DNA of 64,000 bases from an uncultured Prevotella sp. (lineage in GTDB: Bacteria; Bacteroidota; Bacteroidia; Bacteroidales; Bacteroidaceae), in contig CAJOEC010000004.1 of the NCBI GenBank assembly GCA_905233425.1, positions 1 through 64,000 of the forward strand, read 5' to 3'. The translations under genes and the position numbers were made by a program. The notes under the pieces were generated by a model, which did no database searches, was not told where the DNA came from, and worked only from the letters and a program-made list of their open reading frames with translations. Within the stretch, counting starts at the first letter, position 1; every line of letters starts with the position of its first letter. Shown here piece after piece: positions 5,549-42,537 of this stretch.

Positions 5549-6937
5549 TTAGCTAATGATCTCTCCGTAGAGGTCGAACTCTTCGGAGTCGGTTATTCTT
5601 ACATTATATATATTACCTATGACTGGCAGGATAGTCTCATTCTTTTTGCTACCGCCAACTTCTCTTGGAATGAGTACTTCGGGGTCTACTTCGGGCGAGC
5701 AGAACTCGGTGCGGCCGACGTAGTAGTCGCCCTCCACGCGGTCAATGATGACGGGGAGCATGGTGCCTACTTTTGCGGCCTCCAACTCGGCACTGATGTT
5801 CTGCTGCACGCGCATGAGTTTGTCCAAGCGCCGTTGCTTCACTTCCTCGGGCACGTCGTCCTCATAGTGTGATGCCGACCATGTGCCCTCCTCCTCGCAG
5901 TATGCGAAGGCGCCAAGACGCTCGAAGCGTGCCCATTTCACGAATTCGACAAGCTCGCGGAAGTCCTCCTCCGTCTCTCCGGGGAAGCCCACCATCATTG
6001 TCGTGCGCAGATGAATGCCAGGCACCTCGCGGCGCAGCCGCTCCACGAAGGCGCGTGTCTCGGCGGCGGTGATGTTGCGCTTCATGCGGGCGAGCATATT
6101 GTCGCTGACATGCTGCAGGGCGACGTCGATGTAGTTGCAGACGTTCTTCTTCTCACGCATGACACGTAGCAGCTCCCAAGGGAAATTAGAGGGATAAGCA
6201 TAGTGCAGACGAATCCACACCACACCCTCTATGTCGGCCATCTGCTCTATTAGCTGTGCTATTCTTCTCTCGCCGTAAAGGTCTAAGCCATAGTAGGTTG
6301 ACTCCTGTGCGATAATCTGAAACTCCTTTACTCCATGAGCCACCAACTGGCGTACCTCGTTGAGAATCTCCTCCATCGGCCGACTGTGGTGATGTCCGGT
6401 GATGAGCGGTATAGCGCAGTAGGCACACGTGCGGTCGCAGCCCTCGCTGATCTTTATGTAGGCGTAATGGGGTGGGGTGGTGAGCTTTCTTGGCAGACCC
6501 ACCCCCGACCCCTCCCTGTAAGAGATGGGAGTGGTCACTTTCTTCGCTGCGTTTCCGCCTTGAGAGTACTCAATACAGGGAGGGGCAGGGGGGAGGACCT
6601 TCAATAATTCCTTGTAGTTAAACTTCCCGTACCACCCATCAACCTCTGGTATCTCAGCTTCGAGTTCGGCGAGATAACGCTCTGAGAGACACCCCATGAC
6701 GTAGATACGTTTCACAAGTCCTTCAGCCTTGCGCCGCACCTGTTCAAGAATGGTGTTGATGCTCTCCTCCTTGGCGTCGGCGATGAAGCCACAGGTGTTG
6801 ATGACTACAATCTCGCCCTGCGGGTCAGGGGCATCGTGTGTCACACTATAGCCCTCAGCCTCGAAAAGACCCATGAGAACCTCGCTGTCCACAAGGTTCT
6901 TGGAGCATCCCAGTGATATAAAGTCAATTGTTGTCAT
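5549..6937 (-). CDS. rimO: Ribosomal protein S12 methylthiotransferase RimO (with in-frame repeat insertion)
   Basis: SLGCSKNLVDSE, radical SAM CDRTCAYCAIP, C-terminal TRAM region. Confidence 0.96.
   Translation of the reverse strand: MTTIDFISLGCSKNLVDSEVLMGLFEAEGYSVTHDAPDPQGEIVVINTCGFIADAKEESINTILEQVRRKAEGLVKRIYVMGCLSERYLAELEAEIPEVDGWYGKFNYKELLKVLPPAPPCIEYSQGGNAAKKVTTPISYREGSGVGLPRKLTTPPHYAYIKISEGCDRTCAYCAIPLITGHHHSRPMEEILNEVRQLVAHGVKEFQIIAQESTYYGLDLYGERRIAQLIEQMADIEGVVWIRLHYAYPSNFPWELLRVMREKKNVCNYIDVALQHVSDNMLARMKRNITAAETRAFVERLRREVPGIHLRTTMMVGFPGETEEDFRELVEFVKWARFERLGAFAYCEEEGTWSASHYEDDVPEEVKQRRLDKLMRVQQNISAELEAAKVGTMLPVIIDRVEGDYYVGRTEFCSPEVDPEVLIPREVGGSKKNETILPVIGNIYNVRITDSEEFDLYGEIIS
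6495..6600. repeat. Palindromic element, copy A (degenerate), in frame inside rimO
   Basis: Arms acccacccccgacccctccctgt / acagggaggggcaggggggagga; encodes ..PPAPPCIEYSQGGNAAKKVTTPISYREGSGVGL.. Confidence 0.8.
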
Positions 6938-7013: not shown

Positions 7014-10000
7014 TTATTGTGTTGTAAGTTTTGGTTTCAGCTCGTCGGGCGAGTCTTTGGTGAACATGTCCACGGGTGGAGCCTGTTTGGTGAAGAAGTC
7101 GCGGATGGTCTGCACGTCGAGGGTCAGCGATGGCTGGAAGTCGGAGCTCTGCATGTAGTCGATGATTGCGTGGCGCATCTGTCGTGCCACATGTCGGCGG
7201 TCTAGGTCTGATGTGATGTCCATGGTGGTCATGAGCAGTCGTCCCTTGCCGACACGTGCCTCAATGAGCATTCCCAACTTGCGGCTCACGTGCCATGTGT
7301 CGATGGGCTGTATGGGCGGCTGGTAGTCGGCGGGCAGCTCCATGAGGTTCATCACCTGTGCCTTGTTCAGCAGCTCCCACCAGTTGAGGTTGGCCCACGA
7401 GTCGGTGGGGAAACCGTGGCAGAAGAGCGGGTGGGAGGTGTCGATATATGCGCCGGTGGTGTGTGGTGGGCGCATCTTGAACCACGACGTGTTCCAGAAC
7501 ACGGGCAGGTAGGTCTGTTTCACGTCGCTGCCGAGAGTGACACGTCCGGCGGCGGTGAGCAGCACGGTGCCGCCTCGGCTGAGCACGTCGAGAGCTTTGG
7601 TGTCGAGGGAGTCGGCGATGTAGTTGAGAGTTGAGAGTTTAGTGTTGAGAGACTTTTCATCAGCAACATCAGTACTGAAGTCGCTAAACTCTGCCCCCTT
7701 GACACCCGGCGAAGGATAAACCCAGAAATCCCATTCGTTTTGTATTGCGTTCGACACTCTTACGACGAGCTTCAGTTTTTGCGGCGCCAGTATGGCGTTC
7801 AGGGGCATTACCACTGTGCCCATCGGTATGTTCTTTGCTATTGGCAGATTGTTTGTCGAGATTATCCCGCCGGCATAGACCTTTCCCGTGTCATTAATCA
7901 CGTAGTATGAAGTCCTGGCATGTGTGAGTATGCAGTTGAACGAGTTGTACACCTCGATAGGTACGCGCAACGTGTCGGCGTTGGTGTAGACGAAGCGGGG
8001 GAAACGTGCCAGCGGCACCACTACGTTACAGAACTTCCGCCACTGCTTTGCGTTCACGTAGCCCTTTTCTTTCCAGTGGATGTTGAGTGGCCCAACGAGG
8101 GCTGTGCCCTGCCCGCTGTAGTCGTTGAGGCTGAGTAGCTGGAAACCTGTATAGTCGGGTGTGCGCAGGTTGCGCTCTATCTCATATTTATAGCACAGTG
8201 TCTGCAGCCGTCCGCTGGCCTCGAGGAATTTCTTGGCCTGTGAAGCCATGCCGTTGTCGCGCAGCAAGTCGCTGAATATCTCGAAGTTTCGTGCTTTGTA
8301 GACACCGGTGTACTGCGATGATTCTTTCAGGTCGGGGAACGCGCACCACTGTCCCTGCTCGTGGGCGATGATGGGGCTATTGTTGAAAGACCCACCCCCG
8401 GCCCCTCCCCGTGAGGGAGGGGAGTAGTTACTTTCTGCCTTAGTACTGTCCTCAGAAGTATATACTCCCCTCCCTACAGGGAGGGTCTGGGGGGTGGGTC
8501 TGTAGTTCTTCGGATGGAGTATCTGCTCGTAATAGTCGTCGTCCGACGACGGTGCGTGTCGGTCCCAGTCCAGACCTCGTGCCCCGCCCTTAACGTGATA
8601 TTCAGAGCCTCCGTCCCATGCCCATCCGCCACCGACGGAAGCACCGCAGTAGACCTTTGTAGAGTCGTATTCGTGCATCTGCCGCACCCATTCGTCGCAG
8701 TAGGTCACCCAATCGCCTGCCGGTTCGTTTCCAGCAGCCATCATTACGAACGACGGATGGTTGCCGTAGGTGTCGATGATGCGTCGCGACTCGTCAAGGA
8801 GGTATTGGTCGATGGCCATTCCCCTTTTTAGCTTCACTCCGTGGTTAGGCCACGACGGTCCTTCGGGCTGCAGGTATATACCCATGCGGTCGGCTGCGGC
8901 GAAGGCGGCCTCTGGCGGACAATAGCTGTGGAAACGCATCATGTTGAGTCCGTACTCTTTGCACTTCTTGAAGATTCGTATCCATTCCTTCTCGTCGGTT
9001 GGGGGATAGCCTGTCTCAGGAAAGCAGCAGTTCTCCACCGTTCCGCGTATGAAGAGAGGGTGATTGTTGATCATCATCTGGCGGCCCTCGATGGAAATGT
9101 CGCGGAAGCCGAAGGTCGTTTCGTACTCGTCATCGCCGGCGTAGACTCTAAGTCGGTAGACAGCGGGCGTGAACTCGTCCCATGCCAGCATTTTGTTGGT
9201 CATGCGTATGTCAAACTCCACATGAGTCTTGCGCTCGATGTTTATCCAGTTGCTAAGGAACGATATGAGTAACTGTTCGGTGTTCTCGCCTTCCACTAAG
9301 TTATTCCATGTTTCGCTTGTCGAATAGACGAGCTGTTCGGAGTCGACGCCTACCATGGTGACATCGTATGAGATGCCATACACATTTTGCTGCATCACGT
9401 GTACTGTGCCAAGTCCCTGGTTTGCGTGGTTCTCCAAGTCCACCACCACGTGTGCCTTGCGCTGTTTCAGGTTGGGGTAGACCCTCACTCTGCGTATGTT
9501 CACATGCTTTGGCCTTGCCTGCAGCTCTATCCGTCCGACTATTCCGTTCCAGTTTCCCTGCGTCTGGTCGGTAACCGAGTGTGAGTCCTGACCCACGCAC
9601 ACGTTCTCAATGCCGTTGTACACACGGATGGCTATCTCGTTTCTCTGTCCAATCTTCAGCATTTTCGTCACGTCGTAGACATGCGGCGTGGAAAGGCTCG
9701 TCTGGTGGCCTACCTCTTGACCGTTCACGTAGACCGTGGTCTCAATGTGGGGCCTTTCGAGGAAGAGCGTTATGCGGTTTCCCTTCCAGTATTCGGGCAC
9801 ATAGATGGAGCGTCCGTACCACGCTGTGCCTACATAGTGACGTTCAGGCGTGAGGAAGAATGGCAGTTTCATGTTGCCCTCGTTGCGGTAACGCTCCATG
9901 TAGGGGTTGAAATAATATGACGAGTCGTAGAGCGACCCCGTCCATTGCGTGTTCACGTTCACTGGCAGTCCCTTGCCGTTGGTGAGCATCGAGCCGGGCA

Positions 10001-10217
10001 GCATCACGAACTCGCCGGCACCGATGGCTTTCTCCACGGCTATCAGTTTGTGCTCGTTGTCAAACACTGTGTCAGGAAGTTCGCCCATACGGAAATGCCA
10101 CGACCCGGCAAGGTCGATGACCTGCTGGGCCGTCAATGGAGTAAAGAACAGGGGGGTGAAGAGGGAAAAGAGTTGAATGATTAGCTTCTCTTTCAGATTC
10201 TTTGTCATGCCCTTCAT
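7014..10217 (-). CDS. Secreted glycoside hydrolase family 2-like enzyme (beta-galactosidase/beta-glucuronidase superfamily)
   Basis: Signal peptide; GH2 jelly-roll (LAGSWHFRMGELPDT, GTAWYGRSIYVPEYW) and TIM-barrel motifs (MMRFHSYCPPEAAF, MMAAGNEP). Confidence 0.85.
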   Translation of the reverse strand: MKGMTKNLKEKLIIQLFSLFTPLFFTPLTAQQVIDLAGSWHFRMGELPDTVFDNEHKLIAVEKAIGAGEFVMLPGSMLTNGKGLPVNVNTQWTGSLYDSSYYFNPYMERYRNEGNMKLPFFLTPERHYVGTAWYGRSIYVPEYWKGNRITLFLERPHIETTVYVNGQEVGHQTSLSTPHVYDVTKMLKIGQRNEIAIRVYNGIENVCVGQDSHSVTDQTQGNWNGIVGRIELQARPKHVNIRRVRVYPNLKQRKAHVVVDLENHANQGLGTVHVMQQNVYGISYDVTMVGVDSEQLVYSTSETWNNLVEGENTEQLLISFLSNWINIERKTHVEFDIRMTNKMLAWDEFTPAVYRLRVYAGDDEYETTFGFRDISIEGRQMMINNHPLFIRGTVENCCFPETGYPPTDEKEWIRIFKKCKEYGLNMMRFHSYCPPEAAFAAADRMGIYLQPEGPSWPNHGVKLKRGMAIDQYLLDESRRIIDTYGNHPSFVMMAAGNEPAGDWVTYCDEWVRQMHEYDSTKVYCGASVGGGWAWDGGSEYHVKGGARGLDWDRHAPSSDDDYYEQILHPKNYRPTPQTLPVGRGVYTSEDSTKAESNYSPPSRGGAGGGSFNNSPIIAHEQGQWCAFPDLKESSQYTGVYKARNFEIFSDLLRDNGMASQAKKFLEASGRLQTLCYKYEIERNLRTPDYTGFQLLSLNDYSGQGTALVGPLNIHWKEKGYVNAKQWRKFCNVVVPLARFPRFVYTNADTLRVPIEVYNSFNCILTHARTSYYVINDTGKVYAGGIISTNNLPIAKNIPMGTVVMPLNAILAPQKLKLVVRVSNAIQNEWDFWVYPSPGVKGAEFSDFSTDVADEKSLNTKLSTLNYIADSLDTKALDVLSRGGTVLLTAAGRVTLGSDVKQTYLPVFWNTSWFKMRPPHTTGAYIDTSHPLFCHGFPTDSWANLNWWELLNKAQVMNLMELPADYQPPIQPIDTWHVSRKLGMLIEARVGKGRLLMTTMDITSDLDRRHVARQMRHAIIDYMQSSDFQPSLTLDVQTIRDFFTKQAPPVDMFTKDSPDELKPKLTTQ
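7623..7650. repeat. Heptanucleotide array inside the GH2-like CDS (4 heptads)
   Basis: gttgaga gttgaga gtttagt gttgaga; encodes SLNTKLSTLN on the minus strand. Confidence 0.8.
8388..8501. repeat. Palindromic element, copy B (114 bp = 38 codons), in frame inside the GH2-like gene
   Basis: agacccacccccggcccctccccgtgagggagggg...tcccctccctacagggagggtctggggggtgggtct; encodes PQTLPVGRGV...NYSPPSRGGAGGGS. Confidence 0.92.
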
Positions 10218-12983: not shown

Positions 12984-13091
12984 CCTTCTGGAGGATTCCC
13001 CCGGTGGGAATAATTTATTCCCACCGGGGGAACAATTTGTTCCCACCGGGGGAATGTTTTGTTCCCACCGGGGGAATCCTCGCTCAGAAGG
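12984..13091. repeat. Interrupted long inverted repeat with internal 22-bp-spaced TTCCCACCGGGGGAA units
   Basis: ccttctggaggattcccccggtgggaa ... ttcccaccgggggaatcctcgctcagaagg; same-orientation units at 13018, 13040, 13062. Confidence 0.92.
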
Positions 13092-39771: not shown

Positions 39772-42537
39772 CTATTTCAACTTTGCCAGTTCTATGACCT
39801 TGTCGATGGCGGTGCTCAGCCCGTCGGCGTTCTTACCGCCGGCCTGGGCGAAGTGGGGCTGTCCGCCACCACCGCCCTGTATGAGCTTGGCAGCCTCGCG
39901 CACCATCTGTCCGGCGTTCAGGCCGTGGTCGCTGACCACGTCGTCGCTCATCATGATGGTGAGCAGCGGCTTGTCGTTATAAGTTGTTCCGAGAACGCAA
40001 AGCAGCGGGCCTTCCACGTTTGCGCGTATCTTGAAGGCGAGGTCTTTGGCAGCCTGTGGCTCCATCGGCATGATGGTGGTAACCACCTTCACACCACCAA
40101 TTAAGCGGCCCTTCTCAACCAGTTGTTTGGAATAGCGCTCCACGGCCTGGGCCTGGAACGACTCTATCTCTTTCTTCATCGAGTCGTGCTCTTCAATATA
40201 TTTCTGTATTACGCCCTGCAGGTCTTTGGCGTTGTTGAAGAACGACTTGATGGCTTTCAGCGTGTCCTCGATGTTGTAGAGAAGTTCCTCGCATTGCTTG
40301 CCAGTCCTGGCCTCGATGCGGCGGATGCCGGCGGCGACGCTGCTCTCGCTGATAATCTTGAAGAAGCCGATGCGGCCTGTGCTTGTGGTGTGGATACCAC
40401 CACAAAGCTCGCACGACGGGCCGAAGCGCATGACGCGCACCTTGTCGCCGTATTTCTCGCCGAAGAGGGCTATGGCACCGAGTTTCTTGGCCTCGTCCAT
40501 GGGCATGTCGCGGTGCTCGTCGCGGGGCAGGTCTTGGCGTATCATGCTATTGACCAGTCGCTCCACCTCGCGCAGCTGCTCGTCGCTGACCTTCTCGAAG
40601 TGGGAGAAGTCGAAGCGCAGAGCGTCGGGGCTGACGAATGAGCCTTTCTGCTCCACATGGTCGCCGAGGACCTGTTTCAAGGCGTAGTCGAGGAGGTGGG
40701 TGGCGGTGTGGTTGGCTGCCGAGGCATCGCGCTTGTCGGTGTCTACACAGGCCATGAACTCTGCCGTCGGGTCTTTCGGCAGCTCCTTCACGATATGTAC
40801 GGTCTGGCCGTTCTCGCGCTTCGAGTCGATAATCTCAATGGTCTCGTTCTCGCCGGCGAGGACACCCGTATCGCCCACCTGGCCGCCCATCTCGCCGTAG
40901 AACGGCGTGTAGTCGAGCACCAGCTCGTAGAAGGTGTTCTTCTTCTGGGTGACCTTGCGGTAGCGTATGATGTGGCAGGTGTATTCGGTGTAGTCGTAGC
41001 CAACGAACTGCTGTTCTTTGTTGAAAGGTGAGGGGTCACTAAACACATCCACCCAGTCGCTGTTCTCCACCTGGGCGGCATTGCGGGCGCGCTCCTTCTG
41101 TTTCTGCATCTCAACCTGGAACTGCTCCTCGTTCACCGTAAAACCGTTCTCGCGGCAGATAAGCTCGGTGAGGTCGAGAGGGAAGCCGTAGGTGTCGAAG
41201 AGGCGGAAGGCCTGGACACCACTCAACTCCTTCTCTCCACAACTCCTCATCTCCTCCATGGCCTTGTCAAGGAGCGAGATGCCCTTGTCGAGGGTGCGCA
41301 GGAAGCTGTCCTCCTCCTCCTTTATTACGCGGCCGATGAGCTGCTGCTGGGCCTTCAGTTCGGGGAAGGCGTCGCCCATCTCCTCGACGAGCGTGGGCAG
41401 GAGCTTGTAGAGGAAGGCTTCCTTCTGTCCGAGGAACGTATAGGCATAGCGCACGGCACGGCGCAGGATGCGGCGGATGACGTACCCTGCTTTGGCATTC
41501 GAAGGCAGTTGACCGTCGGCAATGGAGAAGCTGACAGCACGCAGATGGTCGGCGCAGACGCGCATGGCAACATTAACAGACTCTCCCCCGGCCCCTCCCT
41601 GTGAGGGAGGGGAGTATATAGATTCCTCACTAGAATTTTCAACAGAAGAGGTAACTACGCCCCTCCCTACAGGGAGGGGATGGGGGAGGGTCTGTTCCTC
41701 GAAAGTGGTGTACTTCAGCCCTGTTATCTCCTCCTCCTTCTTGATGATGGGCTGGAACACGTCGGTATCATAGTTGGAGTGTTTTCCCTGCATCATGCGG
41801 ACGAGACGCTCGAAGCCCATGCCGGTGTCGATGACGTTCATCGACAGCTTCTCTAACGAACCGTCGGCCTTGCGGTTGAACTGCATGAACACGAGGTTCC
41901 AAATCTCGATAACCTGCGGGTCGTCTTTGTTCACCAGCTCACGGCCTGTCTTCCCGCTGGCAGCCTTCTGCTCAGGGGTGCGACTGTCCACATGAATCTC
42001 AGAACAGGGACCGCAGGGTCCGGTGTCGCCCATCTCCCAGAAGTTGTCGTGCTTGTTGCCGTTGATGATATGGTCCTCGGGCACATGCTTGGCCCAGTAT
42101 CGGGCGGCCTCATCGTCGCGGGGAATATTCTCCTCGGGCGAACCCTCGAACACGGTGACGTACAGGTCGTCGGGGTTCAGCTTCAGCACGTCAACGAGAT
42201 ATTCCCAGGCCATGTCGATGGCACCCTCCTTGAAGTAGTCGCCAAACGACCAGTTGCCAAGCATCTCGAACATGGTGTGGTGGTAGGTGTCGTGGCCCAC
42301 CTCCTCAAGGTCGTTGTGCTTGCCGCTGACGCGTAGGCACTTCTGCGTGTCGGCGCGGCGGCGCGGCTCAGGGTCGCGGGTGCCGAGGATAATGTCTTTC
42401 CACTGGTTCATGCCGGCGTTGGTGAACATCAGCGTCGGGTCGTCCTTAATAACCATCGGTGCGGAGGGCACGATGGAATGGCCTTTCGACTCGAAAAACT
42501 GTTTGAACGAGTCGCGGATTTCTTTTGCTGTCATCAT
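39772..42537 (-). CDS. alaS: Alanine--tRNA ligase (with in-frame repeat insertion)
   Basis: [56 protein letters not shown]. Confidence 0.97.
41578..41694. repeat. Palindromic element, copy C (117 bp = 39 codons), in frame inside alaS
   Basis: cagactctcccccggcccctccctgtgagggagggg...cccctccctacagggaggggatgggggagggtctg; encodes [13 protein letters not shown]...[13 protein letters not shown]. Confidence 0.93.

Follow-up and report, generated by a model that had tools for sequence, protein, structure and literature searches.

The locus raises the question of how the gene of an essential enzyme came to hold, within its reading frame, a stretch of palindromic DNA. The gene is alaS (alanyl-tRNA synthetase), an ORF on the minus strand at positions 39772-42537 of the window, by which is meant the whole 64-kb stretch of DNA analysed. 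Its product of 921 residues matches TIGR00344 with E=3e-253. Between GLKYTTFEE and VNVAMRV, frame parsing of the ORF identifies 39 inserted codons (117 bp, 41694-41578, minus strand), and the AlaRS sequences of the PDB align on either side of them (residues 2-275 and 314-478), not inside. The codons coincide with a quasi-palindrome at 41575-41696 (AACAGAC...GTCTGTT, no strand), which is recognized by its inverted repeat and its copies elsewhere in the genome and is assigned here to family 1. The first-pass annotation of this DNA, which had described an in-frame palindromic element in alaS, is confirmed on this point. The arms, 37 nt each, are 81% complementary. The left arm (41575-41611, plus strand) has a GTATATA-type inner end, and the right arm (41660-41696, plus strand) has an inner end of the GTAGTTAC type on the other strand. 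Two internal 9-bp hairpins are present on the plus strand, CCCCTCCCT-GTG-AGGGAGGGG at 41592-41612 and CCCCTCCCT-AC-AGGGAGGGG at 41660-41679. A search of the window for the hairpin pattern finds 2 occurrences and none in 100 shuffles, so that the pattern is unexpected by chance. The G-rich arm of the element (GGGAGGGGATGGGGGAGGG, 41671-41692) matches a putative G-quadruplex motif.

Family 1 is dispersed in many copies through the host genome, which is of Prevotella type and comprises 4.93 Mb in 193 contigs. Close full-length copies of the alaS element occupy at least about 40 places (BLAST; 40 of 173 candidates were scored), and exact hairpins number 277 genome-wide against 0 for a reversed control pattern. 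The aligned copies give the consensus AGACCC[AT]CCCCC-nn-CCCCTCCCT-loop-AGGGAGGGG-AGTA..., followed by a variable middle and then by the inverse. The genome contains a second palindrome family with AGCCCCACCCCC ends, and a third with TGACCCC ends that lies largely between genes. Among 80 genomes of the genus, 15 carry the strict hairpin in 1-145 copies each; the genomes compared are mostly MAGs, and the named ones with the family-1 repeat are rumen Prevotella/Prevotellaceae. The element thus occurs elsewhere in Bacteroidota, in many rumen Prevotella genomes. An assembly artefact is improbable, because in-frame copies of the family occur in several genes here and also in genes of named genomes that other studies produced.

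The copies of family 1 are mostly protein-coding and in frame. Of the 36 full-length copies parsed, 34 are in frame within ORFs of at least 200 residues, and 27 of 30 scanned host genes match a curated family. The hosts with curated families include alaS, priA, dnaG, a gyrB/parE-type topoisomerase gene, a lyso-ornithine lipid synthetase, class I synthetases (valS/ileS), pyrG, purL domains, an ABC-F ATPase, GH94, rnr (RNB), a transcarbamylase and a PIF1 helicase, where names such as valS, ileS and purL come from a reading of the sequences combined with the curated domains. In an unselected set, consisting of every hairpin cluster listed for contigs C2-C11, 24 of 35 clusters are in frame in genes, 21 of these 24 with curated families, and the other 11 comprise five of the intergenic family, the two ends of one DUF559 element and four that are intergenic or uncertain. 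Of the 16 full-length copies that could be tested in the other named genomes from the rumen, 12 are in frame. Most copies add 39 codons (range 34-44), and 77% of the residues in the inserted peptides are G, P, S, T, N, D, E, Q, K or R.

All three elements found in the window are in frame. The second of them, also of family 1, is located by the element scan at 8388-8501 (no strand) in a glycoside hydrolase family 2 gene (7014-10217, minus strand). The third is degenerate and lies at 6487-6607 (no strand) in a gene at 5549-6937 (minus strand), which we take from its sequence to be rimO, encoding the ribosomal protein S12 methylthiotransferase. Elsewhere in the genome, three elements lie in frame within a single GH31 gene (L103 950-3487, G000:C9), and one of the three is chimeric, its left arm belonging to family 2 and its right arm to family 1.

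The comparison of alaS among relatives defines the kind of site that is occupied. The gene was located in 78 of 80 genus genomes. The first-pass annotation had supposed that other Bacteroidota AlaRS run almost directly from GLKY into AMRV, and this did not hold: the 29 relatives inspected have about 16-60 residues there, highly variable, unrelated in sequence and often repetitive. None of the 29 has family 1 at the site. A clean empty site was not found among the relatives inspected because the loop length differs in every one of them. The alaS insert therefore sits in a variable loop and replaces a part of it. The loop of one relative (G051) contains a different palindrome, and those of two others (G066 and G027; L063, L070) contain simple repeats such as SEKSENSEYSE and KDSKDLKD, which is another route of loop expansion. 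With the family multi-copy, present in frame in many hosts and missing from alaS of these relatives, the earlier suggestion that an essential enzyme tolerates a selfish-like palindrome in its frame, in the manner of the Rickettsia elements, stands.

The loops of other host genes extend this picture. In rnr, pyrG, valS, ileS and thrC, the short native loop of element-free relatives, for example RKKGK in rnr or EEEKDEAL in pyrG, is missing in the element-bearing genome, which indicates that the element replaces the loop. No target-site duplication is visible at the compared loops, a comparison limited to diverged relatives. Five of the ten loops checked (alaS, dnaG, pyrG, purL and rnr) have palindromes in more than one species. 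The rnr loop carries family 1 in another reading frame in G062 and family B in G059 and G066; the pyrG loop carries family 1 in G034; the purL loop of G023, G066 and G040 carries a GCCCCC...CCCTCGGGGGC family; and the dnaG loop of G059 has a family-1-like element. The families other than family 1 that occupy host loops are also multi-copy in several genomes. Palindromes are therefore turned over across species at shared loops. In the same loops of pyrG and rnr of G034 and of dnaG of G051 (L296, L289, L306), there are in-frame palindromes built of short tandem units, for example GTTGACGAGTTGACAAG...CTTGTCAACTCGTCAAC, which look like a different type of repeat. G034 and G067 each have two pyrG copies with differing loops (L295/L296, L259/L282) and may represent mixed strains.

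The two internal hairpins noted in the first-pass annotation are both present, but across families the better conserved structure is a single long hairpin between the arms. When the arms are paired into a single long hairpin in an alignment of ten representatives across families, 98.8% of the cells fit and 27 are compensatory, compared with 0-3 compensatory cells when the partner was slid as a control. The two-hairpin reading fits 96.4% of cells with 19 compensatory ones. In family 1, the outer A/T site tends to covary between the two ends (12+14 matched, 6+4 unmatched; P=0.018). The identity of the arms is thus maintained, for which selection for folding would suffice, as would a process in which one arm corrects the other. 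The inner ends of the small copies are unlike each other, with GTATATAC on one side and GTAGTTAC on the other, as is the case in the DUF559 elements described below. The types are distributed as T/G 10, G/T 11, G/G 7 and T/T 0 (P=0.0016).

The arms of the small palindromes also bracket a gene, and the only gene found between them encodes a DUF559 protein. On contig C7 of the host genome (G000), left and right arms of family 2 surround about 430 bp encoding such a protein (Pfam PF04480, E=4e-36). The genome has four DUF559 genes, each within a distinct palindrome subfamily. One (L345) lies between family-1 arms, the whole element measuring 595 bp and having a small palindrome on the 5' side, one (L343) between family-2 arms, one (L346) between arms of the intergenic family and one (L344) between arms of yet another palindrome. 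Family-1 arms flank DUF559 genes of other rumen genomes as well (L148, L175, L206), family-2 arms flank L347 and L351, and family-B arms flank L354. Flanking inverted repeats score at least 16 at 22 of 30 DUF559 loci from the genus and the named rumen genomes, and the best of 20 shuffles of each locus never exceeds 12. Over the 80 genomes, the hairpin count correlates moderately with the DUF559 count (rho 0.42, P=1e-4, kinship ignored). There are counter-cases, namely G066, which has family-B copies and no detected DUF559, and G022, G027 and G032, which have hairpins and no detected DUF559; incomplete genomes may explain these cases. The direct alignment of the interiors of small copies with DUF559 flanks was too short or diverged for significance, and because the interiors are mostly unalignable, the case for an origin by internal deletion is made by the arms and their polarity. 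The derivation of the small palindromes from DUF559 elements is well supported. What the first-pass annotation overlooked is that the loop is variable and its native residues are replaced, that other palindrome families occupy the same loops, and that the arms are the ends of DUF559 elements. A search of the open-access literature found no paper linking DUF559 with palindromic repeats.

The DUF559 protein contains a PF04480 domain (E=3e-31). An AlphaFold model computed from an input of three sequences (mean pLDDT 75) gave as its top Foldseek matches 3HRL (E=5e-5), which is also matched by sequence (E=1e-13), and I-Bth0305I (3R3P, E=9e-5). The model suggests a small nuclease of the EDxHD/Vsr type, resembling the homing endonuclease I-Bth0305I. 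A DUF559 gene was assigned to the EDxHD homing-endonuclease family before (PMC9403480), and the Caulobacter DUF559 protein VsrA triggers the SOS response in cells without a cytosine methyltransferase (PMC12907096). In relatives, DUF559 is internal to the frames of leuS (L372), ABC-F (L355), an AAA helicase (L358) and an epimerase (L368). It also stands N-terminal to SpoU methylase, amino acid kinase, RNase H, YgbB/IspF and guanylate kinase; these fusions are less certain, as the host may start downstream. Elsewhere in the phylum, it lies in frame inside LeuRS (two genomes) and MetH (two), is in frame with HsdM and a type ISP restriction protein, and is found at the end of a GATase_5 protein. 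At the nested loci, the reading frame is unbroken through host, arms and nuclease and no intein domain was matched, so that carriage by an intron or intein is not indicated there. Of 198 genomes sampled from the phylum, 109 contain DUF559, and 17 of 24 phylum loci have flanking inverted repeats exceeding their own shuffles, 7 of the 17 with scores of at least 16. Viral contigs contained 21 DUF559 relatives; two passed the motif filter, and neither of these two has flanking palindromes.

On these grounds, we consider it probable that the insert in alaS belongs to a mobile palindrome family, as a non-autonomous (MITE-like) copy that codes for protein. In its full-length form, the family would carry a DUF559 nuclease gene between the same arms, and it would spread by a break-and-copy process. 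We infer that the spread is nuclease-driven and homing-like. The DUF559 nuclease would nick or cut the DNA, and repair would copy the foldback element into the break with the loss of a few native codons and without target duplication. Such a repair with loss of native bases would account for both the replaced loops and the absence of a visible duplication. The arms can be read as a stop-free, Pro/Gly/Ser-rich peptide in the usable frames, and for this reason in-frame copies that land in flexible surface loops would survive selection, even in essential genes. The surviving insert would then be translated as an unspliced disordered linker. A broader proposal, to which we also incline though with some reserve, is that a phylum-wide class of mobile elements with nested palindromic ends is built around DUF559 nucleases. 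These elements would insert into loops of essential proteins, in frame and with no splicing, and would be accompanied by swarms of coding MITE-like derivatives, the conserved loops acting as serial landing sites for successive families.

The chief rival explanation is that DUF559 is a passenger, and that the palindromes arise and spread with no dedicated enzyme, through gene conversion among the copies and template switching of the DNA polymerase at quasi-palindromes. The arms are homogenised to near-perfect palindromes, as quasi-palindrome correction would give; the unrelated palindromes of tandem units occupy the same loops elsewhere (pyrG and rnr of G034, dnaG of G051); and the chimeric element of L103 joins arms of two families. 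However, this explanation accounts neither for the regular placement of DUF559 between the arms, one per subfamily, nor for the fixed polarity of the inner ends, and we regard it as rather unlikely.

It is considerably less plausible that the palindromes are elements of the REP/REPIN type mobilised by a RAYT or an IS200-type tyrosine (Y1) transposase. The inverted hairpin pairs do resemble BIMEs, and the genome has four Y1 genes, one of them RAYT-like, but no family hairpin lies near any of the roughly 50 Y1 loci checked in the genus, on which ground a RAYT/Y1 mobiliser was rejected. The correlation of hairpin count with Y1 transposase count over the 80 genomes is weak (rho 0.20, P=0.08, kinship ignored). 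A classical GTAG/CGTC REP was rejected as well, since the tag is absent from its canonical place at the 5' foot of the hairpin in the aligned copies, GTAG being found only 3' of some hairpins, and the unselected clusters are not mostly intergenic. The RAYT-like gene (L060 1405-2340, G000:C75; NCBIfam REP_Tyr_transpos, E=1e-19, below the cut-off) adjoins different, GC-rich palindromes of its own, so that a separate REP system may coexist in the genome.

An ordinary MITE of a DDE transposase would have terminal inverted repeats, a length of about 120 bp and many copies, as observed; it is nevertheless a poor candidate, because the native loop is lost, no target-site duplication is seen at the loops compared with diverged relatives, and the partner with the same ends encodes DUF559 and not a DDE transposase. 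Maintenance by the host for translation pausing, mRNA stability or as selected protein linkers could be suspected from the persistence of the elements in essential genes and their recurrence at the same loops, but is scarcely credible, as orthologous loops differ freely from one species to another and in many cases are short and contain no element.

Palindromic elements of Rickettsia (RPEs), about 100-150 bp in length, occur in frame in the ORFs of functional proteins, with several families per genome. They are the nearest known precedent for protein-coding palindromes, and family 1 is likened to them by its behaviour as in-frame palindromes in protein-coding genes and not by its sequence. Family 1 differs from RPEs in taxon and probably in sequence, in having a partner nuclease gene with the same arms, and in that most of its copies are coding. 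The favoured interpretation of the DUF559 elements offers a candidate mobiliser for protein-coding palindromes and would provide a domain of unknown function with a role.

Other known systems share some of these features. REP/BIME/REPIN sequences with RAYT (PMC3733652, PMC3116915) are likewise high-copy inverted hairpin pairs with a gene bracketed by the same repeats, and intragenic REPs are reported in some species, including in tRNA synthetase and repair genes (PMC3733652). In contrast to them, family 1 lacks the GTAG/CGTC tag and a Y1 transposase, is partnered by DUF559 and lies for the most part within genes, not between them. EDxHD homing endonucleases (I-Bth0305I; PMC9403480) have the same predicted fold and reside within conserved host genes, whereas DUF559 is without an intron or intein, is nested in frame and unspliced, and has palindromic ends and non-autonomous derivatives. 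Bacterial MITEs and the enterobacterial RU elements (PMC2759123, PMC2229807) are likewise small repeats that are non-autonomous and have inverted ends, and some of them are coding and lie within genes, but they have a different partner gene, and no target duplication is seen at the loops compared here. The nuclease partner is new relative to RPEs and REPs, and it is a real possibility that the DUF559 elements constitute a class of their own kind.

Hidden within proteins, the in-frame palindromes look like mobile DNA of a kind not described so far. Essential enzymes, among them tRNA synthetases, CTP synthase and DNA primase, would carry mobile linkers of 34-44 residues without splicing, and those of some relatives a whole unspliced nuclease domain. 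Bacteroidota protein annotation should accordingly be read with the caution that it includes translated mobile DNA. The elements also mark insertion-tolerant loops, which are useful for protein engineering.

On another contig of the genome (L091 404-589, G000:C5), a glycosyltransferase domain and an acyltransferase domain are separated by in-frame half-elements, which repeat in tandem with a spacing of 57 bp. In the window, a 91-bp palindrome of another kind (TTCCCCCGGTGGGAATAATTTATTCCCACCGGGGGAA...) at 12991-13081 possibly belongs to a further repeat family.
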